Shown here: piece after piece, positions 3,861-48,479 of the stretch
How positions within the stretch are numbered: position 1 is the first letter of the stretch
Layout of the letters: every line of letters begins with the position of its first letter
NCBI GenBank assembly: GCA_024304885.1
Contig: JALJOM010000003.1
Span: forward strand, 1,522,110 to 1,586,109
Direction: 5' to 3'
DNA: 64,000 nucleotides
Source of the DNA: Beijerinckiaceae bacterium
Lineage (GTDB): Bacteria > Pseudomonadota > Alphaproteobacteria > Rhizobiales > Beijerinckiaceae
Position numbers and translations under genes: made by a program
The notes under the pieces: generated by a model
Database searches by the model: none
Seen by the model: the letters and a program-made list of their open reading frames with translations, nothing else
Told to the model about the DNA's origin: nothing

Positions 3861-3974
3861 ACGGGGCGACATATCCGTCTCTCAGTTATGGACCTGTCGA
3901 TCCGACGCGGCAGAATGGTGCGCCGGACCTGACGGTTCGGCACGTTTCCAACCCGAACAATCGTGGAATCGTGC

Positions 3975-5282
3975 ATGGTGACATTCAGCGCCGGCCAGAA
4001 GGCGGCTCTTCGCCTGCTGGAAGGTTCGCAGCGTTACACGTGCATTGCCGGCGGTACCAGGTCCGGAAAGACCTTCCTGATTGTCCGCGCGATCGTCGAG
4101 CGTGCACTCAAGGCTGACGGTTCCCGTCATGCCATCTTGCGGTTCCATGCGAATGCGGCGCGCGCCTCGATCGCGCTCGACACCTTACCACGCGTCATGC
4201 AGCTGTGCTTCCCGGAGGCGAGCCTCAAGGAGCATCGCCAGGACGCTTATTTCGCACTGTCGAACGGCTCGCGCATCTGGATCGGCGGCCTCGACGACAA
4301 GGACCGTGTGGAGAAAATTCTAGGCCTCGAGTATGCGAGCATCTTCCTCAACGAGGCATCGCAAATACCCTACTCCTCGGCGTTGATCGCGTTCACTCGG
4401 CTGGCCCAGGTCATGCCGCGGCTCGATCAGAAGGCCTTCGTCGATCTCAATCCCGTCGGCAAGTCGCATTGGACCCATGTGCTGTTCCGGGACAAGCGCG
4501 ATCCGATCTCGATGCAGCAGCTGAAGGACCCCGAGAGCTACGAGCTCGCGTTCCTGAATCCGACCGACAATGCCGCGAACCTGTCGAAAGAGTTTTTGCG
4601 CAGCCTCGAGAACCTGCCGGAACGGCAGCGCAAGCGCTTCTACGACGGGATCTACGTAGACGATGTCGATGGAGCTCTTTGGACCTACGAGGTCATCGAC
4701 CGCTTCCGATGCGCGCCCGAGGACATACCCGATGATCGACGAGCTTCGGTGGTGGTTGGGCTCGATCCCTCCGGCGCCGCCGGCCGAGACGATCTCGGCG
4801 CCGACGAGATCGGGATCGTCGTCGCCGCACGCGGCATCGACGGTGATTGCTATATCCTCTCCGATCGCTCCTGCCGCGAGGCGCCGGCGATTTGGGGGCG
4901 CCGTGCGGTGGTCGCATTCCACGAATTTCGCGCCGATTGTATCGTCGCCGAGAGCAATTTCGGCGGAGAAATGGTGCGGGCCACGATCGAGGCTGCCGAT
5001 CGTGCTGTTCCGGTGCGCCTCGTCACCGCGAGCCGCGGCAAGGCGGTGAGAGCCGAGCCGGTCTCGGTGCGTTATGCGCAAGGGCAGGTCCATCATGTGG
5101 GCCGGTTCGCCAAGCTCGAAGATCAGCTCTGTGCCTTTTCGTCGGCCGGCTATTCAGGACCCGGCAGCCCCGACCATGCGGATGCGGCGATCTGGGCTCT
5201 GACGTACCTGTTCGGCGCCGACGACGGGACCGGCATCATCGAGTTCTACAGGCGAGCGACACAGGCGGAGAAGATCTGCTAG
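3975..5282 (+). CDS. terL: Phage terminase large subunit
   Basis: Packaging motor ATPase and nuclease that cuts and threads DNA into the prohead. The N-terminal ATPase has a Walker A (GGTRSGKT) and a Walker B-like SIFLNEAS. The C-terminal RNase H-like nuclease shows acidic residues in GLDPSG, VAESNFGG and DHADAAIWAL. The ATG at 3975 has GGAA 6 bases upstream; an in-frame GTG at 3963 is the alternative. It is the first gene of the structural cluster, and no small terminase is detectable upstream, which is odd for a complete phage. A host-type repeat follows immediately after the stop. Confidence 0.93.
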   Translation: MVTFSAGQKAALRLLEGSQRYTCIAGGTRSGKTFLIVRAIVERALKADGSRHAILRFHANAARASIALDTLPRVMQLCFPEASLKEHRQDAYFALSNGSRIWIGGLDDKDRVEKILGLEYASIFLNEASQIPYSSALIAFTRLAQVMPRLDQKAFVDLNPVGKSHWTHVLFRDKRDPISMQQLKDPESYELAFLNPTDNAANLSKEFLRSLENLPERQRKRFYDGIYVDDVDGALWTYEVIDRFRCAPEDIPDDRRASVVVGLDPSGAAGRDDLGADEIGIVVAARGIDGDCYILSDRSCREAPAIWGRRAVVAFHEFRADCIVAESNFGGEMVRATIEAADRAVPVRLVTASRGKAVRAEPVSVRYAQGQVHHVGRFAKLEDQLCAFSSAGYSGPGSPDHADAAIWALTYLFGADDGTGIIEFYRRATQAEKIC

Positions 5283-5381
5283 CGCATCTTCCAGCGAATT
5301 GGCCTCCGGTTCGCGTCGCGAAAATGCGACAAAACAGGACTCTAGAGCTGGTTTCCGATCCAATGGGATCGGAAAGTGCTC
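5283..5381 (-). repeat. Dispersed palindromic repeat, copy 1
   Basis: About 100 bp related to copies at 31177-31285 and 39921-40027, in the opposite orientation to both. It contains the perfect hairpin TTCCGATCC-AATG-GGATCGGAA and the shared core reading GTTCGCGTCGCGAAAATGCG. It fills the gap between terL and portal. Two more copies sit in ordinary chromosome, so this is a host repeat that moved into the phage cluster. Confidence 0.75.
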
Positions 5382-5451
5382 CAAGGCATCGGGTCGAGCA
5401 ATGACCGATGCCTCGTCCGACCGAAGCCCGTCGAAACACGAAGGAACCCAC

Positions 5452-6807
5452 ATGGTCGAGCGGGGCACGGGGCAACGACAATGGTCGCTCAGCCCATATG
5501 AAGTCAATGTCAGCTTCGGCCCGGCGACGAATGCCGGCGACGGTACGAGCTGGTTCGGACCGTCGCCGCCGATTACACCGCTTGCGCCTCCGGAAGTTGC
5601 CGGACGCCAATGGGATTTTCCGGCCGGATACAACCTTTCGACGCTTTCCCGGCCCCATGAGCCCGTGACCTTTTCGACCTTGCGTGCCCTGGCCGACGGC
5701 TACGACCTCCTCAGGCTGGTGATCGAGACGCGCAAGGATCAAGTTGCCGGACATACCTGGACGATCAATCGACGTGACAAGGCGCCCCCTTCACCCGCGG
5801 TGAAGGCACGCATCGATGCGGCGAAGGCGTTCCTGGCGCGTCCAGACGGAATCCACTGCTTCGCGGACTGGCTTAGAATTCTCCTCGAGGAGGTGTTCGT
5901 AACCGATGCGGCAACTCTCTACATGAGTCGTGATAGGAGCGGACGCCTCAGAGCCCTGATGCCGCTCGATGGGGCGACGATCAAGCCCATTCTCGACAAT
6001 TGGGGTCGAACGCCGCAACCCTATCTGGAAAACGGCAAGACGATATATCCGCCTGCGTACCAGCAAATCCTGAAAGGCTATCCGGCAATCGATTACTCGG
6101 TTCGGGATCTGATCTACCGTCCCCGCAACCTACGCGTCAACCGCGCCTACGGCTACAGCCCAGTCGAGCAGATCGTCACCACCGTGAATATCGCATTACG
6201 GCGGCAAATGTATCTACTCGATTATTTCACCGAGGGGAACATTCCAGACAGCCTGATCGGCGTGCCGGAAAACTGGACTCCCGACCAAATCGCGTCATAC
6301 CAGAAATATTGGGATGCCTATTTCGATGGCGACCAAGGACGTCGACGCAGAGCGAAGTTCGTTCCCGGTGGCGTTGCCAAGACCTTCGTACAAACATCCG
6401 AGCCGGAGCTCAAAGGTGCATTCGACGAGTGGTTGGCGCGACTCGTTTGCTTCGCGCTCTCGATCTCGCCGCAAGCGCTCATCCAAACGATGAACCGGGC
6501 GACTGCAGAGACCCAGAAGGATCTCGCGCAGGAAGAAGGTCTCGCGCCGATTCTCGGGTGGGTGAAGCGCCTCGTCGACGACGTGCTTGCAACCGAGCTC
6601 GATGGGGATGACCTCGAGCTCTGCTGGTGCAACGAAAGCCAAATCCATCCCGTTGACCAAGAGAAGATTCTGTCGAGCTACACGTCGAACGGAATACTCA
6701 CGATCAACGAAGCACGCGGCGTACTCGGCCGCGATCCGTTCGATGACGCGTCCGCCAACCTCCCGATGATCTCGTCCAGCATAGGCAATATCGCTGGACC
6801 GGACTAG
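5452..6807 (+). CDS. Phage portal protein
   Basis: Portal subunit that forms the dodecameric ring through which DNA enters the head and to which the tail attaches. The sequence has the typical portal pattern: an N-terminal region rich in hydrophobic turns, a central wing ending in YFTEGNIPDSLIGVP, then the helical SPQALIQTMNRATAETQK segment and a C-terminal LTINEARGVLG region shared by HK97-type portals. The ATG at 5452 is preceded by AAGGA at a good distance. Upstream in-frame ATGs (for example 5401) would add residues partly encoded by the dispersed repeat. About 451 aa, normal for the family. Confidence 0.88.
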   Translation: MVERGTGQRQWSLSPYEVNVSFGPATNAGDGTSWFGPSPPITPLAPPEVAGRQWDFPAGYNLSTLSRPHEPVTFSTLRALADGYDLLRLVIETRKDQVAGHTWTINRRDKAPPSPAVKARIDAAKAFLARPDGIHCFADWLRILLEEVFVTDAATLYMSRDRSGRLRALMPLDGATIKPILDNWGRTPQPYLENGKTIYPPAYQQILKGYPAIDYSVRDLIYRPRNLRVNRAYGYSPVEQIVTTVNIALRRQMYLLDYFTEGNIPDSLIGVPENWTPDQIASYQKYWDAYFDGDQGRRRRAKFVPGGVAKTFVQTSEPELKGAFDEWLARLVCFALSISPQALIQTMNRATAETQKDLAQEEGLAPILGWVKRLVDDVLATELDGDDLELCWCNESQIHPVDQEKILSSYTSNGILTINEARGVLGRDPFDDASANLPMISSSIGNIAGPD

Positions 6808-10290: not shown

Positions 10291-11112
10291 ATGGGGCAGT
10301 CCAACGATCTTACCAGCCTAGCCGATCTCAAAAGCTGGCTTGGGGTGTCGGGTTCCGACGATGATGACCTTCTCGAGCGACTGGTTTCGCAGACGAGTCG
10401 CGCGATGCTCAAGTATCTTGATCGGTCATCGATCCTCCCCAATCGGTATACGGAATGTTTCGACGGAGGGAACGAGAAGTCGATTGTTCTACGTGAATGG
10501 CCGGTAACGTCGATCGAATCCTGCACCATGAACGGGCTATCGCTTCTTCCCTTGCATGGGGGAAATGGGACGACCGCAACGGCATACGTTCTCGACATCC
10601 CGGACACGCTTCCTCCAGGGCGTATGCAGAGGCTCTCGCTGCGCGGCGGCGTTTTTGCCCGTGGCGTGCAGAATATTGAAATCTCATACCACGCCGGGTA
10701 TCAGATCACAGCCGAGCCTGCTGTCGTACCGTTGGTCCCGCCCTACGAGATAGATGTCTTGGCTCCGCACGGGCGTTTTGCATCCGACATGGGGGTCCAT
10801 TACGCCAATGGAGTCTCGCTAACGAAGACCTCGGTGGTACCGGGTATCGGGCAGTATTTTTGCTCGGATGGCCTATATGTGTTCTCGGGCGCTGATTCGG
10901 GAGCGTCAGTGACCGTGTCGTACGGCTATGTGCCAAGTGACATCGCACGTTGCTGTATCGAGTGGGCGGCTGATCAGTACCAATATCGATTGAGGATTGG
11001 GCAGGCGACAAAATCCCTGGGCGGCCAGGAAAGCGTTTCATTCATCGTCAAGGACATGCCGGATTTCGTCAGAGCAGTCTTGCAGCCGTATAGACGGGTT
11101 GTTGGTACATGA
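10291..11112 (+). CDS. Head-tail connector (gp6-like) protein
   Basis: The N-terminal segment (LADLKSWLGVSGSDDDDLLE then helices ending in YLDRSS) matches the helical adaptor family that sits beneath the portal (HK97 gp6/phage head-tail connector). Family members are usually 100-200 aa; this one is 273 aa because residues about 168-214 form an extra module with the pattern YxFxxADxGxxVxVSYxY, which recurs in the tail tube protein. The C-terminal helix IEWAADQYQYR and final SVSFIVKDMPDFVRAVLQPY are typical of the family. It overlaps the next gene by 4 bases. Confidence 0.75.
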   Translation: MGQSNDLTSLADLKSWLGVSGSDDDDLLERLVSQTSRAMLKYLDRSSILPNRYTECFDGGNEKSIVLREWPVTSIESCTMNGLSLLPLHGGNGTTATAYVLDIPDTLPPGRMQRLSLRGGVFARGVQNIEISYHAGYQITAEPAVVPLVPPYEIDVLAPHGRFASDMGVHYANGVSLTKTSVVPGIGQYFCSDGLYVFSGADSGASVTVSYGYVPSDIARCCIEWAADQYQYRLRIGQATKSLGGQESVSFIVKDMPDFVRAVLQPYRRVVGT

Positions 11113-11555
11113 TGAGTTCCAATGAGCAACTACGGGGCTTTGTCCGCGAACGAGTTTCGAGGATTCGTGTGGCTCTTGTCGCAAGACTCGAAGGGCTCAG
11201 TGGCGGCAAAGGAGTAACAGAGGTACTCCGCGGTGCCTCACAGGCGTTGAGCTCTGTGGCTCTTGACCTCGATGGTGCTACCGAAGGTGCGGCGTCCGGC
11301 AAGGACGAGGAAAGCACCGTGCTTACTCTCGGAACGAAGAATGCCGCGCGTGACATTGCGAGCGGAAGGCGGTCGAAGATGGTGGGGCTAACGAATGGCT
11401 ATGCCCTGAATGTTGCGCGGATCGAACGGAACAATTCGGCGACCGAGGAGGACATAACAAAGCGCTCATTGGCCGGTACTGAAAAAGCGGGTCTCGCTTC
11501 GGACCTCAAAGCGGCAATCTCCGGCGCGCTAGGTCGTGGCCCGAACGGTGGCTGA
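11109..11555 (+). CDS. Hypothetical phage neck/tail-completion protein
   Basis: 148 aa, not recognised. It starts with an ATG overlapping the connector stop (ATGA). The protein is helical in character, Ala/Arg-rich with a C-terminal Gly/Asn tail, and no membrane segment. From its place between connector and tail terminator it may be a stopper or tail-completion protein, but the sequence itself does not show this. Confidence 0.55.
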   Translation: MMSSNEQLRGFVRERVSRIRVALVARLEGLSGGKGVTEVLRGASQALSSVALDLDGATEGAASGKDEESTVLTLGTKNAARDIASGRRSKMVGLTNGYALNVARIERNNSATEEDITKRSLAGTEKAGLASDLKAAISGALGRGPNGG

Positions 11556-11609
11556 AGTTCGGCTTTTGTCATCGGATCTTTATGCGTGAAATGCGGGGAG
11601 AGAGAGATT

Positions 11610-12056
11610 ATGGCGGTATCGACCCGCGAGTGTGCGATCGCCGCCCTGAGATCGCTCGTTGCGGACTCGTATACGTGGAAGACCGGACCGTACCGGCGTC
11701 TCAAGCTGTGGAGCGACGTGCCGTTCTCCTCACGTCCCGCTTGCTATCTCTACGAAGGCGGCGAGGACGTTTATGCGTGGACGGAAAATGCACGACCAAA
11801 GCGAATTATCGATGTAAGAATTTTCGCCTATATGAATGCAAAAGAGTCGAGCGTTGTCGGCGGTGCATTGCTTAACGACGTGATGGACGCGTTGGATGCA
11901 GCGTTCCTCCCGAGAGGCACGGATGTTGTTCTCGGCAGAAGCACGCTGGGTGGGACCGCGTATCAATGCCGAATTGACGGCAAGGTGTTGAAGGATCCCG
12001 GTGATCTCGACGGCGACGCATTGCTTGTCGTACCTGTCCGGATCGTTCTTCCATGA
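11610..12056 (+). CDS. Tail terminator-like protein
   Basis: 148 aa from an ATG preceded by GAGAGAGA. The pattern (an N-terminal helix, then YKWRPR-like basic strand, RPACYLYEGGED, a long beta segment and a C-terminal VVPVRIVLP strand) resembles small tail terminator/minor tail proteins of the lambda gpU or HK97 gp10 neighbourhood, which cap the tail tube at the head end. Assignment rests mainly on size and order; an in-frame GTG at 11586 is an alternative start. Confidence 0.5.
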   Translation: MAVSTRECAIAALRSLVADSYTWKTGPYRRLKLWSDVPFSSRPACYLYEGGEDVYAWTENARPKRIIDVRIFAYMNAKESSVVGGALLNDVMDALDAAFLPRGTDVVLGRSTLGGTAYQCRIDGKVLKDPGDLDGDALLVVPVRIVLP

Positions 12057-12323
12057 ATTCGGACAACGAGCAAGCAGATTTGGACCGCATCGTGAGCCTA
12101 CGTGAGTGTAGGTATCGTTGGCCGGCCGTAAACCGCGGCAGGTGAGCCCGTGTCGATGCAGGGGATCGGTCGTGAGCTGTGTCGCCGAGACTCGGCGAGC
12201 TGAGCGTGACCGCGATCACCTGAATTCGGTGTCGACACAATGGTTCGGTGGCGCATTTTGGCATTTGCTCCGGGATAGTCCTGCTAGCCGTCGTTAACCT
12301 AGGCGACAACATAGGGGAAAAGG

Positions 12324-13061
12324 ATGTATAGCTTCGGCACGGGCGTATTGCTTGGAACCCGCACGGATATTCCGAATGCGACGCCTGTGAATTTCGGGTT
12401 GGTCCAAGAAGTGACCATCGAGGAGACGGCTACGATAAAGGAGCTGCATGGTCAGTTTCAACGTGCGATTGTCGAGGCGCGCGGTACAATCAAGACGACC
12501 GGCAAGGCGAAGGTCGCGCGCATTTCGGGTTTGGCGTTCGCATATCTTTTCTACGGCGTGACACCTGCGGCAGGACAGCTCGCGACAGCGTTTGCGGAGG
12601 CGGGGACGATACCGGCTTCGTCTCCGTTCACTTTGTCCGTTGCGAACGCGGCCGGGTTTTCCGATGACAATGGGGTCGTGTATTTGGCGACTGGACTGCC
12701 ACTGATCAAGGTTGCGACAGCGCCGGATATTGGAGAGTATTCGGCATCAGCGGGTATATATTCGTTCAACGCAGCAGATGCGGGAAAAGCTGTGCTCGTG
12801 AGCTATACGTATTCGGTGAGTGGGATGGGTCACAAGTTTACGGTGAGCAACCAGCTCCTCGGTACCACGCCTACGTTTCAGGCGCAGTTCTATACGACCT
12901 TTCAGGGCCAGGCGGTTTCGCTGACATTGAACAACTGTACATCGAGCAAGTTCAGCTTCAAGACCAAGCTCGAAGATTTCGTGATGCCGGAGTTCGATTT
13001 TTCGTGTTTCGCCGATGCCGCCGGCAACGTCATGACATGGTCCTTCGCGGAGGTGTCGTGA
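12324..13061 (+). CDS. Major tail (tube) protein
   Basis: 245 aa, beta-rich and Thr/Ala/Gly-rich, located just before two small overlapping genes and the tape measure, the standard place of the tail tube subunit. Residues about 117-164 carry the module YxFxxADxGxxVxVSYxY also found in the connector; the remaining parts (QEVTIEETATIKELHGQF and a C-terminal LEDFVMPEFDFSCFADAAG) look like the tube fold itself. About 265 bases of untranslated sequence precede it. Confidence 0.75.
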   Translation: MYSFGTGVLLGTRTDIPNATPVNFGLVQEVTIEETATIKELHGQFQRAIVEARGTIKTTGKAKVARISGLAFAYLFYGVTPAAGQLATAFAEAGTIPASSPFTLSVANAAGFSDDNGVVYLATGLPLIKVATAPDIGEYSASAGIYSFNAADAGKAVLVSYTYSVSGMGHKFTVSNQLLGTTPTFQAQFYTTFQGQAVSLTLNNCTSSKFSFKTKLEDFVMPEFDFSCFADAAGNVMTWSFAEVS

Positions 13062-13062
13062 C

Positions 13063-13434
13063 ATGCGGTTGCAGCCGGAAAGGATCAGCTTGGGAGAGAA
13101 GGAGTGGGTCATCCGGCCGTTGACACTACGGCAAGTCCAAGAAATCGAGCCGATTCTCATGGAAGGAGATAAGGCATCGAGCGGAAGCATCGGGGCGGCG
13201 TTGGCAATTGTCGCGATCGCGATTCGGCGTGACGATCGGGAGGCCGCATCCAATCTCTTGGATATCGAAGCGACTGCAGCGGAAATCGGTGTCGCGATGG
13301 GTACCGTTTTGCGTTTGGGTGGCTTCATTCAGTCAGACGGGTCAGGAGGGTTGTCTTCGGGGGAAGCCCAGGCGGGTGTGACAGGTTCGGTCGAGGCTCC
13401 CGGCTCGATTTCGGAAATGTCTACGCCCGCTTGA
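13063..13434 (+). CDS. Tail assembly chaperone (gpG-like)
   Basis: 123 aa beginning one base after the tail tube stop, with GGAGG 9 bases before the ATG. The N-terminal WVIRPLTLRQVQEIEPIL pattern is typical of alphaproteobacterial phage tail chaperones that hold the tape measure during tail assembly. It overlaps the following gene by one base (TGATG) in the -1 frame. No slippery heptamer is evident at the overlap, so I read these as two coupled genes rather than a programmed frameshift. Confidence 0.6.
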   Translation: MRLQPERISLGEKEWVIRPLTLRQVQEIEPILMEGDKASSGSIGAALAIVAIAIRRDDREAASNLLDIEATAAEIGVAMGTVLRLGGFIQSDGSGGLSSGEAQAGVTGSVEAPGSISEMSTPA

Positions 13435-13661
13435 TGACTGCTTGTGGCTATACCCCTGACGAGATCGATGACATGGCGTTTTGTGACGTTCTCGGCCTCC
13501 TTGCGTATTGGGAGGAGTGGCCTCCGGTTCACGAGATTCTGAAATGCGTCTATCGCATCGAACGGAATAGGGAACCTCCTGCGAAATCCGGTGGGACCGA
13601 TCCGAGTGCTATCGGAGACCTTATTGCGAGATTCCCGGGTGGTTACGTCCGAGGAGGTTAG
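13434..13661 (+). CDS. Small tail assembly chaperone (gpT-like)
   Basis: 75 aa. The segment YTPDEIDDMAFCDVLGLLAY resembles the PxEIDxMxxxDxxxLL motif of the small chaperones encoded just before tape measure genes (GpT/TAC family). The stop of the preceding gene overlaps its ATG, so translation is probably coupled. Confidence 0.6.
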   Translation: MTACGYTPDEIDDMAFCDVLGLLAYWEEWPPVHEILKCVYRIERNREPPAKSGGTDPSAIGDLIARFPGGYVRGG

Positions 13662-13711
13662 ACCTATCGTTTTCGTGAAATCGATGGCGACTCAGACGAG
13701 GATCTGTTGCG

Positions 13712-14971
13712 ATGTCCGAAGATGTCATCATCAAGCTCAAAGCCGATGTTTCGGAGTTGGAGCGAGGGTTGCGCGAAGCCGCTACCGCGATGGATGCCAC
13801 CCTTGGTGCCATGAAAAGCGGAGCGTCGCAGCTCGAGGCATCCTTCGCATCGGTGTCCCGCGGCTATGGGGCGAATGCGGCCCAACGGGTCTCCGGCATG
13901 CAGTCGTCGAGCGCGGCCGAGCTGTCCGTCGCTCGGCAATTGGAGTCGAGTCGCTATGCTATCGCATTGAACGGGGTGAGAGAGCAAATTTCGCTCGTTC
14001 GCCAGCAAGCCCAGACGGCACAGATATCTCGTCAGCAGGAGCTCACGAGCCTCCTCGCTCTCGACCGCCAGAGGGAGGAGGTCGAGCGCAGGCATCTGCA
14101 GGTTGTGGCTGGTTTGCATCGTCAAGGAACCGCTGGTTACGTTGCTGCTCAGGCCAGGATGACGGAGATCGCGAGTGAGTCCGCGCTCCGACGACAGGAA
14201 ATCGAACGGACAGCTACGTCCCAAATGTACTACGACTATCGACGCTCGTTCGATCAAATAGGTGGGAGTGTATCGCGATCGATTACAGGCATGATCGCGG
14301 GCACGACATCTTTGCGGGACGCCGCACGCAACATCTTGCTGCAGGTTATCGAATCGTTCATTCAAGCCCGCATTCGCATGCTTACGGATTGGTTGGCCGG
14401 TGTAGCCGCGCAGACCACCGCGACGACTGCAGGCGAAGCGTCGAAGACCGCGGCTGTGGCAGCGGGTACCTCGGCGCGCGCGAGTTTGGAGACGAGTGCC
14501 GCGGCTGCGTCCGGGTTCGGCATCATATCGAACATCCTGAAGAGCATTTTTGCATCTGCAGCGCAGACGTTTGCAGGCATTTTTGGCTTTTTGTCGCCGA
14601 TTATGGGTCCTGCGGCCGCAGGGCCGGCGCTGGCGGGCCAGGCCACCGTGCTCGGCGTTGCGAGCGCGCTCCCGGCCTTCGACGTCGGCTCGTGGGAGCT
14701 GCCGAGCGACATGATTGCCCGCGTCCACAAGGGCGAGATGATCGTTCCCGCAAGCCCCGCGGCGGCTTGGCGTTCGGCGTTCGATCAAGGTCCGATCGGC
14801 GCGGGCAGGCAGGTCATGGTCAGCCCGTCGATCAACGTATCGATCCAGGCGATGGACGGTCAAAGCGTGCGTAGAGTCTTCAAGAACAATAGCCGCGAGA
14901 TGTCTCGGGCGATCGGCGAGGGTGTGCGGCTCGGAACCTATCTCGGCTCGAGCCGGCTCCGCGAGGCATGA
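13712..14971 (+). CDS. Tail tape measure protein
   Basis: 419 aa, with GAGGA 9 bases before the ATG. The N-terminus IIKLKADVSELERGLREA is the usual tape measure start; a long Gln/Arg/Glu-rich helical region (about 70-190) is followed by hydrophobic helices (about 260-325) and a C-terminal VHKGEMIVPA motif common in alphaproteobacterial tape measures. It is short, implying a short non-contractile tail. Base composition rises visibly from about 14.6 kb, inside this gene, and stays high to 18 kb, suggesting a recombination joint. Confidence 0.82.
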   Translation: MSEDVIIKLKADVSELERGLREAATAMDATLGAMKSGASQLEASFASVSRGYGANAAQRVSGMQSSSAAELSVARQLESSRYAIALNGVREQISLVRQQAQTAQISRQQELTSLLALDRQREEVERRHLQVVAGLHRQGTAGYVAAQARMTEIASESALRRQEIERTATSQMYYDYRRSFDQIGGSVSRSITGMIAGTTSLRDAARNILLQVIESFIQARIRMLTDWLAGVAAQTTATTAGEASKTAAVAAGTSARASLETSAAAASGFGIISNILKSIFASAAQTFAGIFGFLSPIMGPAAAGPALAGQATVLGVASALPAFDVGSWELPSDMIARVHKGEMIVPASPAAAWRSAFDQGPIGAGRQVMVSPSINVSIQAMDGQSVRRVFKNNSREMSRAIGEGVRLGTYLGSSRLREA

Positions 14972-14992
14972 TCCTCAAACGGGGCTCGGGAT

Positions 14993-16843
14993 GTGACCTA
15001 CATCAACGGGGCGAACCTGCTTCCTTCGACGGGGGAGTTCACCTATGCCACGACAGCGCGGATCGGTCAGCGCGTCACGGAAGCCATCGGCGTCGGAGTC
15101 AATTTCTACGCCTCCGGCAAGACCGCGGGGACCTATGCCGGCGAGGAGGCCGACTTTCCGCGCGCGATCGACCAGTTGCAAACGGCGTTCCCGGCTTGCA
15201 CGACAGTCTCGTTGATCGTGTCATGGTTCTTCAACTCGACGTCGGCGGGCTCGTGCAAGGTCTATCCTTCGACCACCTACCTCAACAACGGGAGCGTGAT
15301 CGATCCGAGCACGGGGACGCCCTACTGCACGGTCGATCATTCCTTCTATTACTGGAACGGCTCGGCGTTCACGCCGGATGAATGGCGGGTTTCGAGCCTC
15401 GACACGACATCGGCGGCGATCATCCCGATCAGCAAGATCGGATCGTCCTTCGCCTATGGCGGAACGCCTTCGGATCACTCGATCCTCGAGGCGATCGCCG
15501 ATCTGAAGTCGCGCGGCCTGCGCGTGGTCTTCTATCCGTTCCTGCTCGGGGACATCCCCGGTTCCTACCCGTGGCGTGGTCGAATCGGGCACTCGCCTGA
15601 CATGACGACGGCCGCCGAGAACGCGGTCGCCGCCTTCCTCGGCTCGGCAACGCCGGCGCAGTTCACGGCGAACGTCGGGCTCGGAACGGTCGCTTATACC
15701 GGGGCCGTGAACAACTTCTGCTACAGAAGGATGATCCTCCACTATGCCCATCTTTGCGCTATGGCCGGCGGTGTGGAGTTATTTCTTGTTGGATCTGAGC
15801 TGCGCGGTCTGGAAACCATTCGGGGGACTTCCTGGACCAAGGACGGCGGCGGTCCGCCGGCGACATGGGACTATCCCTTCGTCGCCGGATTGATCGACCT
15901 CGCCGACGACGTGCGGTCGATCTTCGACGCGGCGAGCCTGACCAAGGATTTCGCCGCCAAGCACAACCTGATCAGCTATGCTGCCGACTGGTCGAGCTGG
16001 ATGGGCTACCAGCACCCGGGCGAGGACGGACAATGGCCGCACCTCGACGCGCTGTGGTCGCATCCCAATATCGACCTCGTGTGCTTCGACAATTACCTGC
16101 CGTTGTCGGACTGGACGATGGGCGACGGTGGGCTCGACGTCCTGAATTGGGCCGTGCCGAGGTTCTCCGGGACCTGGCCGCCCGACGAGACGCAAATGAG
16201 TGGCCTCGGCCTCGCCGGGACGCCGAGCTTGCTCTCGAAACCCTATTTCAAGGCGAACATCGAGGGTGGCGAGAAGTTCAGTTGGTTCTATGCCGGCGAC
16301 GACGAGAACCTCGGCCGCGGGCTCGATCCGTCCGGCTCCGGGGACCAGGTCTCGCGGCCCGAGGGGGACCGCCTGGCGCAAGTCCGCTCGCGGTTCTACC
16401 CCGACCAGGAGCTCCTCGCGCCGAAGCAGCTTCGATGGTGGTGGAACAACGAGCACAAGGCGATCTACGACACCGGGGCCGGATGGGCGCCTCAAGGCAG
16501 CGCGACGGCATGGGCGGCGCAATCGAAATCGATCGCCTTCACCGAATACGGCTATCCGAGCTGCGACAAGGGCACGAACCAGCCGAACCTCTTCTTCGAC
16601 TCGAAGAGCTCGGAAAGCGGGACCCCATATTGGTCGATATGGCACTCGGTCTATGGCGGCAGCTATGCGCCGGTGCCTGACCGAACGATCGCGCCGCTCG
16701 CCCTGCAGGCGGTTCACGAATATTGGTTCGTGGACGGCAACAACGAGACGTCCGGATCCGGCGTCACGATGCTCGACCGGCCTTTTTTGCTCGGTCTGGT
16801 CCTGGGATGCGCGGCCGTTCCCCACCTTCCCGAAGCGGGGTGA
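14993..16843 (+). CDS. GTA TIM-barrel-like tail protein, N-terminal part
   Basis: 616 aa with the glycoside-hydrolase TIM-barrel-like domain found in the tail hub of RcGTA and related phages (family signatures such as YGYPSCDKGTNQPNLFFD and HEYWFVDGNNETSGSGVTML). The start is a GTG at 14993. The frame stops at 16843, but the expected continuation WDARPFPTFP is encoded in the +1 frame from about 16790, so the gene appears split at a T6 run (16783-16788); five Ts would restore one long protein to 17336. This may be a true frameshift mutation, slippage, or a sequencing error. In RcGTA this domain is fused to the hub; here the hub is separate. Confidence 0.8.
   Translation: MTYINGANLLPSTGEFTYATTARIGQRVTEAIGVGVNFYASGKTAGTYAGEEADFPRAIDQLQTAFPACTTVSLIVSWFFNSTSAGSCKVYPSTTYLNNGSVIDPSTGTPYCTVDHSFYYWNGSAFTPDEWRVSSLDTTSAAIIPISKIGSSFAYGGTPSDHSILEAIADLKSRGLRVVFYPFLLGDIPGSYPWRGRIGHSPDMTTAAENAVAAFLGSATPAQFTANVGLGTVAYTGAVNNFCYRRMILHYAHLCAMAGGVELFLVGSELRGLETIRGTSWTKDGGGPPATWDYPFVAGLIDLADDVRSIFDAASLTKDFAAKHNLISYAADWSSWMGYQHPGEDGQWPHLDALWSHPNIDLVCFDNYLPLSDWTMGDGGLDVLNWAVPRFSGTWPPDETQMSGLGLAGTPSLLSKPYFKANIEGGEKFSWFYAGDDENLGRGLDPSGSGDQVSRPEGDRLAQVRSRFYPDQELLAPKQLRWWWNNEHKAIYDTGAGWAPQGSATAWAAQSKSIAFTEYGYPSCDKGTNQPNLFFDSKSSESGTPYWSIWHSVYGGSYAPVPDRTIAPLALQAVHEYWFVDGNNETSGSGVTMLDRPFLLGLVLGCAAVPHLPEAG
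16783..16788 (+). other. T6 run at the apparent frameshift
   Basis: Codons CCT TTT TTG CTC run through six Ts. Removing one T joins the TIM-barrel frame to the downstream frame that encodes the conserved WDARPFP continuation. The site contains T TTT TTG, a classical -1 heptamer, but the needed shift is +1 (or -2). Confidence 0.6.
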
Positions 16844-16844
16844 C

Positions 16845-17336
16845 GTGTGGGGCGACGCGCCGAACTGGTCGGCCGGGCATTGGGTCGAGGGCAAGGAGCC
16901 ATATTTCCCGCCCGGTTCTACCGACCCGCCGCCCGGGCCTGGTGCATGGCCGGCCTTCCCGGTGCTCGTCGGGCAGGGCTGGTCGGTGACCTATTCGCCG
17001 AAGCATGTCGTGATGCACGAGGAGCACGTCTCCGGCCGTGAGGCCCGAGCGGCGCGAACCTCGGAACCATTGCTCGAGATCGAGCTCACATACGATGTGC
17101 TGCGCATGGGCAGCCCCGCGGAGCTCGAAACGCTCGCCGGGTTCTATGCTGGGCGGAAGGCCGCCAATGCGCCGTTCATCTTCCCTGTGCCGACTGCGCT
17201 CGTCCCCGGGTCAGGCCCGGGGATCGAAACGTCGATTACGGCTCGCTTCGTCGACGACCATCTCGACCTCGAGGAATTCGTCTCGCGGCTCTGGCGCGGC
17301 GAGGCGGTCAAGATCGCGCAAGTGAGAGGTGAGTAG
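16845..17336 (+). CDS. DUF2460-like C-terminal part of the TIM-barrel protein
   Basis: The reading frame gives WGDAPNWSAGHWVEGK, the usual sequence following the GTA TIM barrel, then a DUF2460-like domain (FPVLVGQGWSVTYSPK, HVSGREAR, FVDDHLDLEEFVSRLW). It could be translated on its own from a GTG at 16845, two bases after the upstream stop, or as the end of a frameshifted fusion starting at 14993. The domain is similar to the complete DUF2460 protein next door, so the locus holds two copies. It overlaps the next gene by one base (TAGTG). Confidence 0.6.
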   Translation: MWGDAPNWSAGHWVEGKEPYFPPGSTDPPPGPGAWPAFPVLVGQGWSVTYSPKHVVMHEEHVSGREARAARTSEPLLEIELTYDVLRMGSPAELETLAGFYAGRKAANAPFIFPVPTALVPGSGPGIETSITARFVDDHLDLEEFVSRLWRGEAVKIAQVRGE

Positions 17337-17944
17337 TGCCGCCGCCAGTCTTTCCGAACCTTGCCGGCCAAGGCTGGTCGGTGCACAAGCGGCCCGGCTT
17401 CTCGACGCGGACGGCGACCCATGTCTCCGGCCGCGAGGTCAGGGTGCCTTTCTTTTCGTTCCCGCTTTACGAGTTCGAGCTGATGTTCGAAGGTCTCGAC
17501 TCGGACGGGAGCTTCCCGGGCCTCGGCGCGAGCTCGCTGCAGAGCCTCATGGGGCTCTACCTGCAGGCTCGAGGCAGCTACGGGACCTTCCTCTATACGG
17601 ATCCGACGGATAGCGCTGCGACGGCGCAGCTCCTCGGGATCGGAGACGGATCGAGAACCGCCTTCACATTCCAGCGCACGCTCGGCGGGGCAATCGAGCC
17701 CGTGTCCTACGTCACGAGCGTGTCCAACGTCTATCTGAACGGGATCGACCAGCCGAGCGGGTGGAGCTTCACCGCGCCGCGGACGCTGACCTTCTCGGTC
17801 GCGCCAGAAAATGGTGTGACAGTCACCGCGACGTTCACCTACGCTTTTGAATGCCGGTTCCTCGACGACCAGGTCGATTTCGAGAACTTCATGAGCGGAC
17901 TGTGGAAGGTCGAGAGCCTGAAGTTCAGGAGCGTGAAGTCATAG
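17336..17944 (+). CDS. DUF2460 distal tail protein
   Basis: 202 aa, similar to the RcGTA gp12 family (distal tail ring). The N-terminus VFPNLAGQGWSVHKRPGFST and C-terminus RFLDDQVDFENFMSGLWKVE are diagnostic. Between them, residues about 99-172 form an inserted beta module (GDGSRT..., SVSNVYLNG, FTAPRTLTFS) that is also present in the glycosidase at 25667-27508. The GTG start overlaps the preceding stop by one base. Confidence 0.82.
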   Translation: MPPPVFPNLAGQGWSVHKRPGFSTRTATHVSGREVRVPFFSFPLYEFELMFEGLDSDGSFPGLGASSLQSLMGLYLQARGSYGTFLYTDPTDSAATAQLLGIGDGSRTAFTFQRTLGGAIEPVSYVTSVSNVYLNGIDQPSGWSFTAPRTLTFSVAPENGVTVTATFTYAFECRFLDDQVDFENFMSGLWKVESLKFRSVKS

Positions 17945-17974
17945 CATGAATTCCATCTCCCCACGAGGGTAGGT

Positions 17975-17991
17975 GCCTCGCGTAGCGAGGC
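17975..17991 (+). repeat. Short hairpin between tail genes
   Basis: GCCTCGC-GTA-GCGAGGC forms a perfect 7-bp stem with a 3-base loop in the 60-base gap before the DUF2163 gene. There is no T-run, so it is more likely an RNA-processing or attenuation hairpin than a terminator. Confidence 0.35.
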
Positions 17992-18004
17992 GAATGAGGG
18001 GTAA

Positions 18005-18868
18005 ATGCGTTCAGCTTCTCCAGCTCTCCTCGCGCACTTGAACGCCTTGCGCTCCGGTGACGCGCGGACGCTCGTCGCCAATCTCTACACCTTCACATTG
18101 CACACCGGCACGATCCTGACTTATACCGATGCCGATGTTCCCATCACGTGGAACAGTTGCACGTATCTCGCCGAATCCGCTCTCGTCGGCGGGCTGAAAT
18201 TCAAATGCACGGCCGGTCTCGAGGTGGATCAGCAGGAGATCACGATCGCGGCGCGCGAGACGGATACGGTCGGTGGTGTTCCATTCCTGCAGGCGCTCAG
18301 GAACGGTGCCTTCGACGGCTGCGCGATCCAGCGCGAGTTGGCCTTTCTCACGGCGTGGAACGCGGTGCCGATCGGAACCGTTCTCCTGTTCAAGGGCAGG
18401 ATCGGGACCATCGACAGAATCGGCCGGACAATGGCCGAGATCACCGTCAATTCGGATCTCGTCATCCTCGACATCGAGATGCCGCGAAACGTCTACTCGC
18501 CGTCGTGCGTGCATGTGCTCTACGATTCCGGCTGTGGTCTCGCCAAGAACGCGTTCGGCGCCAATGGGAGCGTCGAAGCAGGATCGACAACTTCCGTCAT
18601 CAATTGGGCGAGCGCGTCCGCGGCCTATAAGCAAGGAACGATCACGTTTACGTCCGGCATCAACAACGGTGTCTCGGGGACGATCAAGGATGCGAGCAGT
18701 AGCGCATTGACGCTGGTCGCGCCGCTCCTGAATGTTCCTGCGACAAGTGACACCTTCACGGCATATCAGGGGTGTGATCATACTCGGGAGACCTGCCAAG
18801 CGAAATTCGATAATCTACCCAACTTTCGTGGGTTCCCGTATATCCCGCCGCCGCAATATTCATTTTGA
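18005..18868 (+). CDS. DUF2163/BR0599-family baseplate protein
   Basis: 287 aa, equivalent to RcGTA gp13. The N-terminal half is DUF2163 (TLVANLYTFTLHTGTILTYT, DGCAIQRELAF) and the C-terminal part is the BR0599-like domain with paired Cys and CDHTRETCQAKF, probably an iron- or metal-binding region as reported for RcGTA-type tails. Gene order DUF2460-DUF2163-NlpC-hub is the conserved tail-tip order of GTA-like systems. Confidence 0.85.
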   Translation: MRSASPALLAHLNALRSGDARTLVANLYTFTLHTGTILTYTDADVPITWNSCTYLAESALVGGLKFKCTAGLEVDQQEITIAARETDTVGGVPFLQALRNGAFDGCAIQRELAFLTAWNAVPIGTVLLFKGRIGTIDRIGRTMAEITVNSDLVILDIEMPRNVYSPSCVHVLYDSGCGLAKNAFGANGSVEAGSTTSVINWASASAAYKQGTITFTSGINNGVSGTIKDASSSALTLVAPLLNVPATSDTFTAYQGCDHTRETCQAKFDNLPNFRGFPYIPPPQYSF

Positions 18869-18871
18869 GCC

Positions 18872-19312
18872 ATGATGACAGCCGAGCGCCGAAAAATCGT
18901 GACAGAGGCCCGCAAATGGGTCGGAACGCCATACCATTGCCAGGGGGATGTACGCGGCGCACGTGTCGATTGCGTGATGCTGATCATCCGGGCCTATGTC
19001 GATTGTGGAGTCTGCTCGTCGATCGACCCGAGGCCATATTCCGACGACTGGTTCCTGCACAGGTCAGAGGAACGCTACCTCGGCGGTGTGCTCGAGCATT
19101 GCGTCGAGGTCCAGACCCCACGTCCGGCTGACGTGGCAGTCTTTCGCTGGGGCCGTTGCTACTCGCATGGGGGAATCGTGACCGCTCTAGTGCCACTGAC
19201 GATCATCCACGCTTTCCAGCCGGCGGGGTGCGTGATCGAGGAGCCTGTCGAGAGCAACTGCACGCTTGCCGATCCGCGGCGTCGGCCGCGCTTCTTCTCG
19301 CGGTGGGCGTGA
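18872..19312 (+). CDS. NlpC/P60 tail peptidase
   Basis: 146 aa NlpC/P60 cysteine peptidase, equivalent to RcGTA gp14, which cuts peptidoglycan peptides during DNA entry. WVGTPYHCQG precedes the catalytic Cys in RVDCVMLI, and the catalytic His lies in CYSHGGIV. Two consecutive ATG codons (18872, 18875) open the frame. It stands 3 bases before the hub gene. Confidence 0.88.
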   Translation: MMTAERRKIVTEARKWVGTPYHCQGDVRGARVDCVMLIIRAYVDCGVCSSIDPRPYSDDWFLHRSEERYLGGVLEHCVEVQTPRPADVAVFRWGRCYSHGGIVTALVPLTIIHAFQPAGCVIEEPVESNCTLADPRRRPRFFSRWA

Positions 19313-19315
19313 CGT

Positions 19316-21937
19316 ATGAGCTTCTTGCGCAAGCGCGGTCCGAAGCCTGCGGAAATCCCTCAGCTGACCGGTCTGCAGATCCAGACTTCGTCGAATGCCG
19401 TGCCGATCCCGATCGTCTACGGCGTCAACAAGATCTCACACAACTTGATCTGGACCGGGAAGTTCGAGGCGATCCCGGAATACACTAAGACGGGGGGCAA
19501 GGGCGGCGGGCGCGGGACATTGAGCGGCTATCATTACAAGGCCGACCTCGCCCTTGGGCTGTGCGAGGGGCCGATCTGGGGCGTCGATCACGTTTGGAAG
19601 GATCAGAGCGTCACGAATATCTGGGGGACGCCCTTCGGCCTTTTCTACGGCTCGGCGACGCAAGCCCCGTGGTCGTACCTCGGCTCGGAATTCTGGTGGC
19701 AGGCGCTTTCCTATCGTGGGCTCGCCTATGTAGTCTCGGCGTCGCACGATCTCGGCGCATCTGCGACTCTCGGTGCGATGCAATGGGAGATCTTGGGACG
19801 GCTCTATCCGCCCGTGAACACCGCCAATCAATTTGACGCCGACCCCGCCTTGGTCATCTACGATTTCCTGACATCCGCTCAATATGGAGTCGGGTTCCCG
19901 GCGGCCAGCATCGACGCGACGTCGCTCCTCGGATCCTCGGGTGGATCGTCCTTCCAGGCCTATTGCAAAGCGGTAGGGATCGCCTTCTCGCCTGTGCTGG
20001 CGAACAGGGAATCGGCGAATACGATACTCACCCGTTGGCTGCAGCTCACGAACTCGGCCGCGGTCTGGTCGGGCGGCAAGTTGAAATTCATCCCCTATGG
20101 AGATCAATCGATCACAGGCGCGGTCTATCCAAGCGGGACCTGTACTTTCACGCCGAATTTCACGCCGGTCTATGCGTTGACCGACGACGATTTCGTCCGC
20201 GAGGAGAACGGGGACCCGGTCCAGATCGAGCGCAAGGATCCATACGCGCTCCACAATTTCCAATCGCTCGAGATTTCCTATCGGCTGAACGGCTATAATT
20301 CCTCGACCGTTCACGTGTGGGATCAAGGGTCGATCGAGCTCTACGGACGCCGCGACGGCCCGACGATCGCAGCTCACGAGATTACTGAGCCTTACATAGC
20401 CTCTCGTGTCGGCAATCTGATCTTGCAGCGGCACATCTATATCCGAAACACCTATTCCTTTCGGCTCTCCTTCGAATTTTGCCTGCTCGAGCCGATGGAC
20501 ATCGTGACCTTGACCGACTCCGCGCTCGGCCTCGCCTCTACGCCGGTGCGCATCGTCTCGATCGAGGAGGACGAGGACGGCCTCTTGAGCGTTACGGCCG
20601 AGGAGTTCTCCTCCGGCGTCGGAACGGCGCTCGCCTATCCGGTGCAAGCCAACGAGGCGTCGATCCTCGAGCGCAACGTCGTGCCGTCGTCGGTCAATCC
20701 GCCGGTGATTTTCGAGCCCCCGGTCGGCCTCAGCGGAGGCGAGCGGCAGGTATGGATCGCAGTCTCGGGCGGCCTTGCGACGACGCGCCGCCTCGAGGAA
20801 GACGGCTCGACAGGCGAGCACAACGTCGCGGCGACGATCGACTATCCGGCGGGCTCGACGCCGGCGATCGGGACGGGAGTCTCGTTCCGGGCCTATGTCC
20901 TCGCCGGCGAGCGGACGGCGTGCAGGCTCCGCATTCACGACGGAGTCGCGGTCCAGAGCGTGTCGTTCGACCTCGCGACGGGGGCAATCTCCGGCGCGAC
21001 GGCAGGAATCATGGCCTCATCGATCGAGCCCGTGACGGGCGGATCTTGGTATCTCGTGACGGTCGCTTGCGCCATCGCCGCGGCGGTCGATCCCGTGGTC
21101 TCGATCGTGCTCGAGAATCCTCTCGGCACGGTCTCCTATTCCGGGACGGCCGGGGACGGACTCTTCGTCTGGAACCCGGAAGTTTCGATCGATGGCACGT
21201 CCCCGTCGATCTTGACGATCCCGTTCATGGCCTCGGGCGCGGCCTTCGACCCGGACGCCGAGGACCCGCCGCTCGGCGTCGAGGGCGAGGCCGACCCAAT
21301 GTGGGGCGGCTGTATCGTCCATCTCTCGACCGATGACGCCACCTATGGGCAGATCGGCCAGATCAACGGGCCGGCCAGGCAGGGGGTCACGACGGCCTCG
21401 CTGGAGAGCGGTGGATCATTGCTCTCCGTGAGCCTCGTGCAAAGCGCCGGGACGCTCGAACCGGCCTCGCCTAGTGATGCCGCGAACGGCGTGACGCTTT
21501 CCCTCGTCGAGGACGAGCTCCTCGCCTATTCCGGCGCGATGCTGGCCGGGCCGAATACCTACGATGTCACCGGGCTCGTGCGTGGGCTCCAGGGCACGAT
21601 GGTGCCTACAAGCCACCCGAGCGGCTCGCGCTTTGCCCGTCTCGACGATGCGATCTTCAAATATGCTCTGCCGGCGGCCTATGTCGGTCAGGTGCTCTTC
21701 CTGAAATTCCAGAGCTTCAACATCTTCGGGCTCGGGCTTCAAGACCTTGCGACGTGCTCGACCTACGTCTACAGGCCGACCGGGTTGGGGGCCGGCATGG
21801 GGCCGATCCTGCAGGCGCTCGCGCTCGGGCAGGACGTCGATCTCGGGCTGCTTACCGAAGCGGTCACGATAGAGGAGGACCTGAGCGTCCTGTCCTACGC
21901 GCCTAGTACCACTGTCGATCTTGGAGCAATGGGATGA
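19316..21937 (+). CDS. Tail hub / host-specificity protein
   Basis: 873 aa tail tip protein related to the phage-tail_3 part of RcGTA gp15. The N-terminus (IPIVYGVNKISHNLIW, GYHYKADLALGLCEGPI) and the central DDFVREENGDPVQIERKDPY region are family hallmarks, followed by LEPMDIVTLTD and a C-terminal LRRLQG-like VTGLVRGLQGT segment. Residues about 475-640 hold an inserted beta domain of carbohydrate-binding appearance. Unlike RcGTA gp15 it has no N-terminal TIM barrel, which is a separate gene upstream. It overlaps the next gene by 4 bases (ATGA). Confidence 0.82.
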   Translation: MSFLRKRGPKPAEIPQLTGLQIQTSSNAVPIPIVYGVNKISHNLIWTGKFEAIPEYTKTGGKGGGRGTLSGYHYKADLALGLCEGPIWGVDHVWKDQSVTNIWGTPFGLFYGSATQAPWSYLGSEFWWQALSYRGLAYVVSASHDLGASATLGAMQWEILGRLYPPVNTANQFDADPALVIYDFLTSAQYGVGFPAASIDATSLLGSSGGSSFQAYCKAVGIAFSPVLANRESANTILTRWLQLTNSAAVWSGGKLKFIPYGDQSITGAVYPSGTCTFTPNFTPVYALTDDDFVREENGDPVQIERKDPYALHNFQSLEISYRLNGYNSSTVHVWDQGSIELYGRRDGPTIAAHEITEPYIASRVGNLILQRHIYIRNTYSFRLSFEFCLLEPMDIVTLTDSALGLASTPVRIVSIEEDEDGLLSVTAEEFSSGVGTALAYPVQANEASILERNVVPSSVNPPVIFEPPVGLSGGERQVWIAVSGGLATTRRLEEDGSTGEHNVAATIDYPAGSTPAIGTGVSFRAYVLAGERTACRLRIHDGVAVQSVSFDLATGAISGATAGIMASSIEPVTGGSWYLVTVACAIAAAVDPVVSIVLENPLGTVSYSGTAGDGLFVWNPEVSIDGTSPSILTIPFMASGAAFDPDAEDPPLGVEGEADPMWGGCIVHLSTDDATYGQIGQINGPARQGVTTASLESGGSLLSVSLVQSAGTLEPASPSDAANGVTLSLVEDELLAYSGAMLAGPNTYDVTGLVRGLQGTMVPTSHPSGSRFARLDDAIFKYALPAAYVGQVLFLKFQSFNIFGLGLQDLATCSTYVYRPTGLGAGMGPILQALALGQDVDLGLLTEAVTIEEDLSVLSYAPSTTVDLGAMG

Positions 21938-27508: not shown

Positions 27509-27562
27509 GCGCCTTGCGACGCTTTGAAATCGGCACATGCGGCCGTGCGCGGGGAGGTGACC

Positions 27563-28276
27563 ATGAACTTCGTCAACTTGAAGGCCAGAGCTTACACAGT
27601 GGACGATGTCGAATCGGCCGCTCGTGAGGTTGGGTGCGAGGTCGCCGCATTCCGGGCTGTCGTACAGGTCGAGACCGGTGGCCGAGGTTTCGATGGAAAA
27701 GGTAGGGTCAAGGCACTTTTCGAGCCGCATATATTCTATCGAGTCCTGTCGGGGGAGAAGCGTCGCTCGGCTGTCGCGTCGGGTCTCGCATATGCGAAGT
27801 GGGGGACGCGGCCCTATCCTGCGGATTCCTATCCGAGGATCCTCGCGGCATGCAGGATCGACGAGGAACGCGCATTGCAGGCGGCATCATGGGGTCTTTC
27901 CCAGATCCTCGGGTTGAACCATAGAGCGGCAGGGTTTTCCAGCGCCTCGGAGATGGTCGAGGCCTTTTGCGTGGACGAGGGCGTGCACCTTGCGTCGATG
28001 GCTCGGTTCATCGTCGCGAAGAAGCTGGACGGCGCGCTGAAGCGCAAGGACTGGGCGGCTTTTGCGTATGGGTACAACGGTCCTCGCTATGCGGTGAATG
28101 CCTATGACAAGGCGCTCGCGCAAGCCTATGCCCATTTCAAGCTCGATATTCCAATGGTTTCCATGATCGTGCCGCTTCCGACGCCTCGCCTGAGCGTCGA
28201 GATGCCCAAGCCGGGTCTCCTGCCGCGTAAAGCACCGAAGCTGTGGGATCGAATCGCGGCGATATTCCGACGGTGA
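27563..28276 (+). CDS. N-acetylmuramidase endolysin (DUF3380)
   Basis: 237 aa, with GGAGG before the ATG. The muramidase domain shows the catalytic Glu in AVVQVETGGRGF, then LFEPHIFYR and the motif AASWGLSQILGLNH, all typical of DUF3380 lysozymes that cut the glycan backbone at lysis. After about residue 190 comes a Pro-rich linker and a basic amphipathic end, with a short hydrophobic stretch. It starts the lysis module. Confidence 0.88.
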   Translation: MNFVNLKARAYTVDDVESAAREVGCEVAAFRAVVQVETGGRGFDGKGRVKALFEPHIFYRVLSGEKRRSAVASGLAYAKWGTRPYPADSYPRILAACRIDEERALQAASWGLSQILGLNHRAAGFSSASEMVEAFCVDEGVHLASMARFIVAKKLDGALKRKDWAAFAYGYNGPRYAVNAYDKALAQAYAHFKLDIPMVSMIVPLPTPRLSVEMPKPGLLPRKAPKLWDRIAAIFRR

Positions 28277-32225: not shown

Positions 32226-33527
32226 ATGCCGCTGCGGCTGGATACGAGAAGCGCGGAATTTCAGCAGGCGTTCGCGAGGCTCCTGGCCCACAAGCGGGAA
32301 ACCGCCGAGGATGTGGATCACGTCGTCGAGGCGATTATCGCCGATGTCGTCGCACGAAAGGACGAAGCGCTCCACGCCTATTCGCTGAAGTTCGATCGGG
32401 TCGACCTCGCTCAAGTCGGATTGCGGATCGGCGCGGACGAGGTCGACGCGGCTCTCGCCGGCTGCTCCCCCACAGCACTCGATGCCTTGCGGCTGGCACG
32501 GGAGCGCATCGCCGCCTTTCACGAGCGGCAAAGGCCGCAGGACCTGCTTTTCGCGGATTCCTTGGGGGTCGAGCTCGGCTGGCGCTGGCGTCCGATCGAG
32601 GCCGTCGGCCTTTACGTTCCGGGGGGCACCGCGAGCTATCCGTCCTCGGTCCTGATGAACGCGATCCCGGCGAAGGTCGCGGGCGTGTCGCGCCTCGTGA
32701 TGGTGGTGCCTGCGCCCGACGGACACCTCGAGCCCCTGGTCCTCGCGGCGGCGCGCCTCGCCGGCGTCGATGAAATCTATCGCGTCGGCGGGGCTCAGGC
32801 GATCGCCGCTCTGGCCTATGGGACCGAGACGATCGCGCCGGTCGCGAAGATCGTCGGCCCCGGCAATGCCTTCGTGGCCGCGGCCAAGCGGCGGGTTTTC
32901 GGCACCGTGGGCATCGACATGATCGCCGGGCCCTCCGAAGTCTTGATCATCGCCGACGACTCGGCCGATCCGGAGTGGATCGCCGCCGATCTCCTCGCCC
33001 AGGCAGAGCACGATGCCGCCGCGCAATCGATTCTGATCACGGATTCGTCGGGCTTGGCCGATGCCGTCGAGGCCGCGGTCGCGCGTCAGCTGGAGGCGTT
33101 GCCTCGGCACAATATCGCAGCGGCGAGCTGGGAGGAATTCGGCGCGATCGTCCTCGTCGGAGACCTTTCCGAGAGCCCGAGGCTCGCCGATCGCCTGGCG
33201 CCGGAGCACCTCGAGATCATCACCGAGCGATCCGAGGAGTTGAGCCGCGCTGTCAGCAACGCCGGGGCGATCTTCCTCGGCCCCTACACGCCGGAGGCCA
33301 TCGGCGATTATGTCGGCGGGTCCAATCACGTCCTGCCGACCGCGCGCTCCGCCCGGTTTTCCTCGGGGCTCGGCGTTCTCGACTTCATGAAGCGAACATC
33401 GATCCTCAAATGCACCGCCGAGAGCCTCGCCACGCTCGGACCGGCGGCGGTCGCGCTCGGCCATGCCGAAGGACTCGACGCTCACGCGCGTTCCGTCCAG
33501 GTCCGGCTCGCCACGCCGCCGTCATGA
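32226..33527 (+). CDS. hisD: Histidinol dehydrogenase
   Basis: 433 aa, full length. It catalyses the last two steps of histidine synthesis, oxidising histidinol to histidine with NAD and zinc. Visible motifs are the nucleotide-binding region [34 protein letters not shown], the zinc/active-site QAEHD, PEHLEI and the C-terminal [13 protein letters not shown] precedes the ATG by 7 bases. It overlaps the UPF0262 gene by 4 bases, an arrangement conserved in many Hyphomicrobiales. Confidence 0.97.
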
Positions 33528-48450: not shown

Positions 48451-48479
48451 CCCTGCCCCTTTTTTGAGGAGAATGTAAA

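Follow-up and report, generated by a model that had tools for sequence, protein, structure and literature searches.

The gene for a TIM-barrel tail protein in the phage-derived gene cluster of a Beijerinckiaceae bacterium is broken by a change of reading frame at a run of six Ts (T6; 16783-16788, + strand; positions are those of the window, i.e., the whole stretch of 64,000 nucleotides that was analysed). The frames are open on both sides of the break, and it is absent from every relative examined. We consider a real and recent mutation the most likely origin of this private one-base lesion, with a probability of roughly 0.6. The first-pass annotation had reported that T6 splits the TIM-barrel frame from a WDARPFPTFP continuation, which tblastn, Pfam and the relatives bear out with its coordinates correct; it had left mutation, slippage or recoding, and sequencing error side by side, and of these recoding now appears unlikely and the evidence leans towards recent mutation.

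The frame break and the protein it interrupts

The TIM-barrel ORF holds to the family pattern as far as ...LDRPF and then leaves it for unrelated residues ahead of its stop (Table 1). The sequence around the break reads ...CTCGACCGGCC TTTTTT GCTCGG..., and the +1 frame past T6 (SWDARPFPTFPKRGDVWGDAPNW...) encodes the WDARPFP motif and a DUF2460-like domain, with no stop before 17336. The residues through the Phe before the break, and again those past it, match the pattern AFCSVW-x-WDARPFP of the relatives, the continuation in the next frame beginning SWDARPFPTFP.... Because tblastn with the intact genes of three congeners (G211, G076, and G144), each used separately, shifts frame exactly at T6, the break is more than a chance result. 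The window holds six runs of at least six T or A, and two of the five others were inspected. One further T6 run (30534-30539) lies within the intact ORF of a PAS-domain protein gene (30297-30728), located between gpx/hisD and the end of the cluster with the endolysin gene, and leaves that gene whole; the run at 48460-48465 is outside every + strand ORF of at least 60 aa.

Table 1. Features of the cluster and its surroundings in the window, with the basis of their assignment.
Feature	Position	Strand	Remarks
Terminase large subunit	3963..5282	+	Pfam/PHROGs
Portal protein	5299..6807	+	Pfam/PHROGs
Probable major capsid protein, 521 aa	8148..9713	+	inferred from position and size; phrog_13692, which has no named function
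Probable tail tube gene	12324..13061	+	phrog_8234, function inferred
Tape measure-like gene	13712..14971	+	
TIM-barrel ORF as read, 616 aa	14993..16843	+	GTA_TIM PF13547; ends with TGA 16841-16843 after 18 off-pattern residues
Gene continuation: WDARPFPTFP motif, linker, DUF2460-like domain	16789..17336	+	+1 frame
Possible re-initiation ORF, 163 aa	16845..17336	+	GTG one base past the TGA
Second, separate DUF2460 gene	17336..17944	+	full length
Baseplate hub gene	18005..18868	+	full length; PF09931, PF09356
Gene at peptidase position	18872..19312	+	phrog_329 minor tail protein; peptidase inferred by position
Megatron-like tail protein without TIM domain	19316..21937	+	PF13550, PF23666
Endolysin	27524..28276	+	
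hisD, right flank	32226..33527	+	same cluster side also in G076, G144, G126, G040, G103

The match of the TIM-barrel ORF to PF13547 has an E-value of 1.4e-88 and covers model positions 2-282 of 299, whereas in the intact relative L034 Pfam finds GTA_TIM (1-299) and DUF2460 in a single protein of 762 residues. On the continuation the DUF2460 match scores 28.7 bits against a curated cut-off of 30.4, compared with 33.3 for the intact L034. A structural model of L034, predicted from 18 aligned relatives (mean pLDDT 72.4, pTM 0.71), is of low confidence at residues 414-463 and 510-549, within the TIM region, and from 592 onward, and of higher confidence at 551-590 (block means 73-91). Since the break maps to about residue 586-587 of this model, it is predicted to alter the last few ordered residues of the TIM domain and to remove the linker and the DUF2460-like domain. 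The motif lost from the TIM part is invariant in the 18 aligned relatives. A tandem pair of DUF2460-type domains occupies 16789-17944, one fused to the TIM part and the other a separate gene.

In all 86 distinct relatives for which a position could be assigned to the motif, drawn from genomes of the same family, viral contigs, named genomes, and the genus, the TIM part and the motif stand in one frame; 60 of these are at least 47% identical to the TIM part of the window and the remaining 26 less similar. At the site, L075 (Roseiarcus fermentans) carries DNA identical to that of L068 from G095, so that the family includes this species and is probably the Beijerinckiaceae of GTDB. Over the 27 bases that precede the motif, the longest run of Ts is one in 22 of the 86 relatives, two in 35, three in 16, four in 12, and five in a single case (L012), the closest relatives reading QAFCSVWAWDARPFP or similar, and T6 occurs at the site in the window only (none of the 86). 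The count leaves out the window's own copies (L001-L003), repeat retrievals of identical DNA (including L110, a shortened L004), seven records that have no TIM C-end or motif (L050, L078, L111, L112, L113, L115, and L117), and L028, with a motif variant that the pattern missed and that is in frame by eye; nor does it take in the phage records matching TIM by tblastn, of which there are 62. On these alignments the split is private to this genome. There are other broken TIM copies: L062 has Ns at the break, L061 (a 430-contig assembly) shows an apparent frame change inside TIM, the metagenomic L046 has its own frame break at about 5900-6010, some tens of bases behind the same motif, and in L072 the end of TIM alone is present.

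Origin of the break

We propose that an extra T arose recently in the lineage, presumably by replication slippage, at the T-rich stretch encoding Pro-Phe-Cys, and that it threw a TIM-barrel/DUF2460 tail-tip gene out of frame. Translation would then add the 18 unrelated residues and stop at 16841-16843. Missing from the product would be the linker, the DUF2460-like domain, and the last part of the TIM domain, including WDARPFP; the truncated protein is probably non-functional. The break may be a stage in a recurrent erosion of this cluster, which is phage-derived, possibly GTA-like, and apparently inherited vertically. For its age, five viral-contig relatives were split at the homologous point and each half was compared with the corresponding half of the window. 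Relative to L033-L036, the TIM half is 66-69% and the DUF2460 half 64-74% identical in amino acids, with dN values of 0.24-0.27 and 0.19-0.27, respectively, and dN/dS is 0.11-0.25 across the two halves, at dS values of 0.9-2.4 that are near saturation. In a weakly supported tree of the DUF2460 half the window branch measures 0.19, compared with 0.15-0.79 for the five intact relatives. Both halves of the gene look constrained, nothing suggests prolonged relaxed evolution downstream of the break and, since the DUF2460-half branch of the window is no longer than those of intact relatives, the event would seem to be young. The private split, the constrained halves, and the position of T6 as the sole convincing frame change in the homologue-covered DNA all fit a very recent one-base insertion.

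The main rival, which we regard as doubtful, is a base-call or assembly error, with five Ts and an unbroken gene in the actual chromosome. A lone homopolymer indel, on one record only, in an otherwise full-length and constrained gene and cluster is what such an error would leave. Thirteen other genes of the cluster (3963-21937) can be aligned almost end to end with at least one congener, which would be unexpected had the cluster long been free of selection. This counts against mutation and suits a base-call error equally well. The authors of GeneTack expected that singletons validated by BLASTP would stem from sequencing errors and not from real indels (PMC3711429), and the break at T6, found in one genome only and confirmed by homologues and Pfam, resembles their singleton frameshift genes, likewise single-genome breaks confirmed by BLAST and Pfam, with no difference from them noted.

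The sampled DNA of the genome itself, however, is not rich in homopolymer indels. In a comparison of 0.456 Mb of its own DNA, including the window, with 2.0 Mb of G211, G076, and G144, a convincing frame change emerged at the T6 site alone within the 127.9 kb covered by homologues, with three relatives in agreement, although this covered DNA holds 31 runs of six or more bases. The homology test recovered 51 of 68 planted one-base insertions and returned, elsewhere in the same sample, one 15/34-residue scrap. Six Ts are, moreover, a short run for common sequencing errors. A homopolymer-noisy assembly thus looks unlikely on these comparisons, with which a single error would still be compatible. 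An ab initio scan of coding potential over 464 kb did not flag the T6 site, where the stop and the nearby GTG resemble a normal gene boundary; it yielded seven entries of a stop followed by a non-start and, after an overlapping stretch was reduced to a single count, six distinct frame transitions, every one of them on the reverse strand, for which the model is crude. Real frame breaks may be among these candidates, and they would make a clean assembly less credible. One further candidate, a reverse-strand ORF of the window against G211, came from the opposite search direction, run once. A frame-change candidate at 12689-13329 of the window against G076 was judged to be an alternative-frame extension of a neighbouring gene and was absent from two later searches.

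Far less probable is a functional fission, with the TIM and DUF2460 proteins made separately and the second translated by coupled re-initiation from the GTG at 16845. This codon lies one base past the stop and in the correct frame, and DUF2460 is also present as a separate neighbouring gene; when +1 insertions were simulated in five intact relatives, however, 2913 out of 8442 created a start no more than 10 bases from the new stop, and the GTG is therefore not special. The TIM part would, furthermore, be deprived of its invariant motif.

The least probable explanation, to which we give hardly any credence, is that some full-length protein is made by design, either because RNA polymerase slips at T6 or because the ribosome shifts by +1 at CCU UUU UUG. 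Mechanically this could work, since tRNA-Phe on UUU could re-pair one base on, with UGC (Cys) next, restoring the consensus FCSVW. A precedent is the tssM gene of Citrobacter, likewise a gene of a tail-like secretion system interrupted near a homopolymer and rescued by slippage, but there the run comprises eleven As, occurs also in a Yersinia tssM, and was demonstrated to act at the protein level (PMC4256274), whereas the window has six Ts that are private and known from sequence alone. According to a reporter study in E. coli, slippage by the host RNA polymerase was undetectable on runs shorter than seven Ts or eight As (PMC6260861). The GeneTack criteria for a programmed frameshift gene are at least five related genes with the break and a conserved shift site (PMC3711429); none of the 86 distinct relatives is broken at the site, and their T runs vary from one to five, never six. 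The codon TTG, at 7.4 per 1000 codons, is not very rare in this genome. Stimulating RNA structures are typical of programmed frameshifts, although not always needed, and the 80 bases downstream fold no better than shuffled sequences (z +1.0; 170 of 200 shuffles at least as stable). Programmed recoding or slippage is unlikely, given one frame and no T6 in 86 out of 86 relatives, no downstream structure by folding, and a run too short by the E. coli standard.

The gene cluster and its history in the genus

On its own, the break is an ordinary one-base lesion, and more is to be expected from a study of the cluster. It comprises terminase, portal, probable capsid, tail, and endolysin genes between rnpA/yidC and gpx/hisD, and we found no mention of this cluster or of the T6 break in the accessible parts of the open literature (subscription papers being outside this scope). 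The genes from fibre to endolysin gave partial or no matches in the comparison with congeners. Among them, a tail-fibre gene at 21934-23139 carries an Mtd_N domain (major tropism determinant type). The cluster of G211 contains two extra stretches of ca. 5 kb (L140-L141; C1 952.9-957.7 and 965.8-971.0 kb), between the tape measure and TIM genes and between the portal gene and the next.

The hisD gene adjoins the cluster, on the same side, in six of the 15 genomes of the genus (G000, G076, G144, G126, G040, and G103), and an S24-peptidase gene (PF00717) lies just left of the terminase in six (G076, G144, G126, G040, G103, and G198), G076 and G144 having both flanks in common. In the genome of the window the S24 gene, a small gene, and a DUF6362-like gene (L313, C3, at about 940 kb) are found about 586 kb from the cluster, which indicates a rearrangement at the left edge of the latter. 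A long distance separates terminase and hisD in G211, G172, and G185, and the position differs in others too. A terminase piece of at least 79% identity is present in 13 of the 15 genomes, that of the window included, while G244 has a 37% match alone and G251 none. The identity of terL correlates with that of hisD (Mantel r 0.88, p 0.0002, 10 genomes; a single host gene and weak trees), also when one member of each of two close pairs is removed (r 0.60, p 0.018, 8 genomes). A search for hisD on viral contigs confirmed no relative, and the window has no PF00589 integrase, with 10 located elsewhere in the genome. The cluster looks vertically inherited because hisD is adjacent in six of 15 genomes and terminase divergence tracks that of hisD; the pattern fits mainly vertical inheritance with later moves.

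The terL gene contains a stop or is in pieces in G103, G198, G159, and G185, and in G103 only ~5 kb separate the stop-bearing terminase from hisD, compared with ~24 kb in G076, G144, and G126. The probable capsid gene is matched in nine of the 15 genomes, as two pieces in G185 and G244. For TIM no match was obtained in G103, G159, G198, G223, and G251; the TIM gene of G185, whose assembly is a single contig, is interrupted by an IS4/5-type transposase gene (PF13340, PF01609), and in G040 the TIM match is on a different contig from the hisD-side cluster. The cluster thus seems to erode repeatedly in the genus and, given the losses in congeners, the break in the window may be regarded as one of several losses of the TIM gene and the most recent-looking of them. 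If real, it would be a very recent loss of a tail-tip gene from a phage-derived cluster with its other structural genes still full length. Together with the independent losses in congeners it would form a natural series from intact to erased, by which domestication (as gene transfer agents, GTAs) could be tested against the mere decay of prophages.

Comparison with gene transfer agents

According to a published definition (PMC9662315), GTAs have structural proteins derived from Caudoviricetes, are mostly inherited vertically and co-diversify with their host, and have a genome that is fully endogenized and not self-mobile; they package mostly random host DNA and deliver it. Structural proteins derived from Caudoviricetes are encoded here by the terminase, portal, and tail genes (Pfam, PHROGs), and the hisD side, the S24 position, and the Mantel correlation (a single host gene, weak trees) point to vertical inheritance. 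The TIM part is homologous to that of the RcGTA megatron (PDB 6tba/6teh; profile of the intact proteins against 6tba chain 8A, E 2.2e-105) and, as noted above, to GTA-TIM proteins in the 62 phage records. The RcGTA tail set comprises distal tail, hub, peptidase, and megatron proteins (PMC8601537), and likewise a hub gene, a gene at the peptidase position, and a megatron-like protein come after the TIM gene in the window. Unlike in RcGTA, however, the TIM part lies upstream, fused to a DUF2460-like domain, and in the window the gene is frame-broken, and the TIM domain is placed differently, since the neighbouring megatron-like protein is devoid of it.

With the RcGTA-like head-tail clusters (Rhodogtaviriformidae) the cluster shares the pattern of vertical inheritance and, on a comparison with RcGTA that covered the tail tip, the tail-tip module. 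It differs in that its terminase is only 34-53% identical, over part of the length, to the commoner type of the family (of which the RcGTA-likeness is inferred), its probable capsid gene has no Pfam match, and it is known here from its genes alone. The earlier idea of a GTA undergoing domestication thus gains from the vertical-looking inheritance and the RcGTA-like tail-tip module and loses from the different placement of TIM and the distance of the terminase from the commoner type.

Close relatives of the terminase (at least 64% identity) are present in 18 of 149 family genomes (genera g1, g4, g10, g22, and g36), 16 of which have no second, more distant terminase match, and the other 100 matched genomes have the distant type alone. 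One GTA-like cluster seems to take the place of another in the genomes of this family. Tentatively, the cluster may be a separate, vertically inherited GTA lineage of the family, present since the ancestor of the genus (and perhaps in neighbouring genera, which have close terminases too), that is largely present instead of an RcGTA-like one and is being switched off species by species, the T6 break being a natural and very recent tail-tip knock-out. Matches to the distant-type terminase also in G040, G198, G185, and G231 of the genus speak against a strict rule by which one type stands in for the other.
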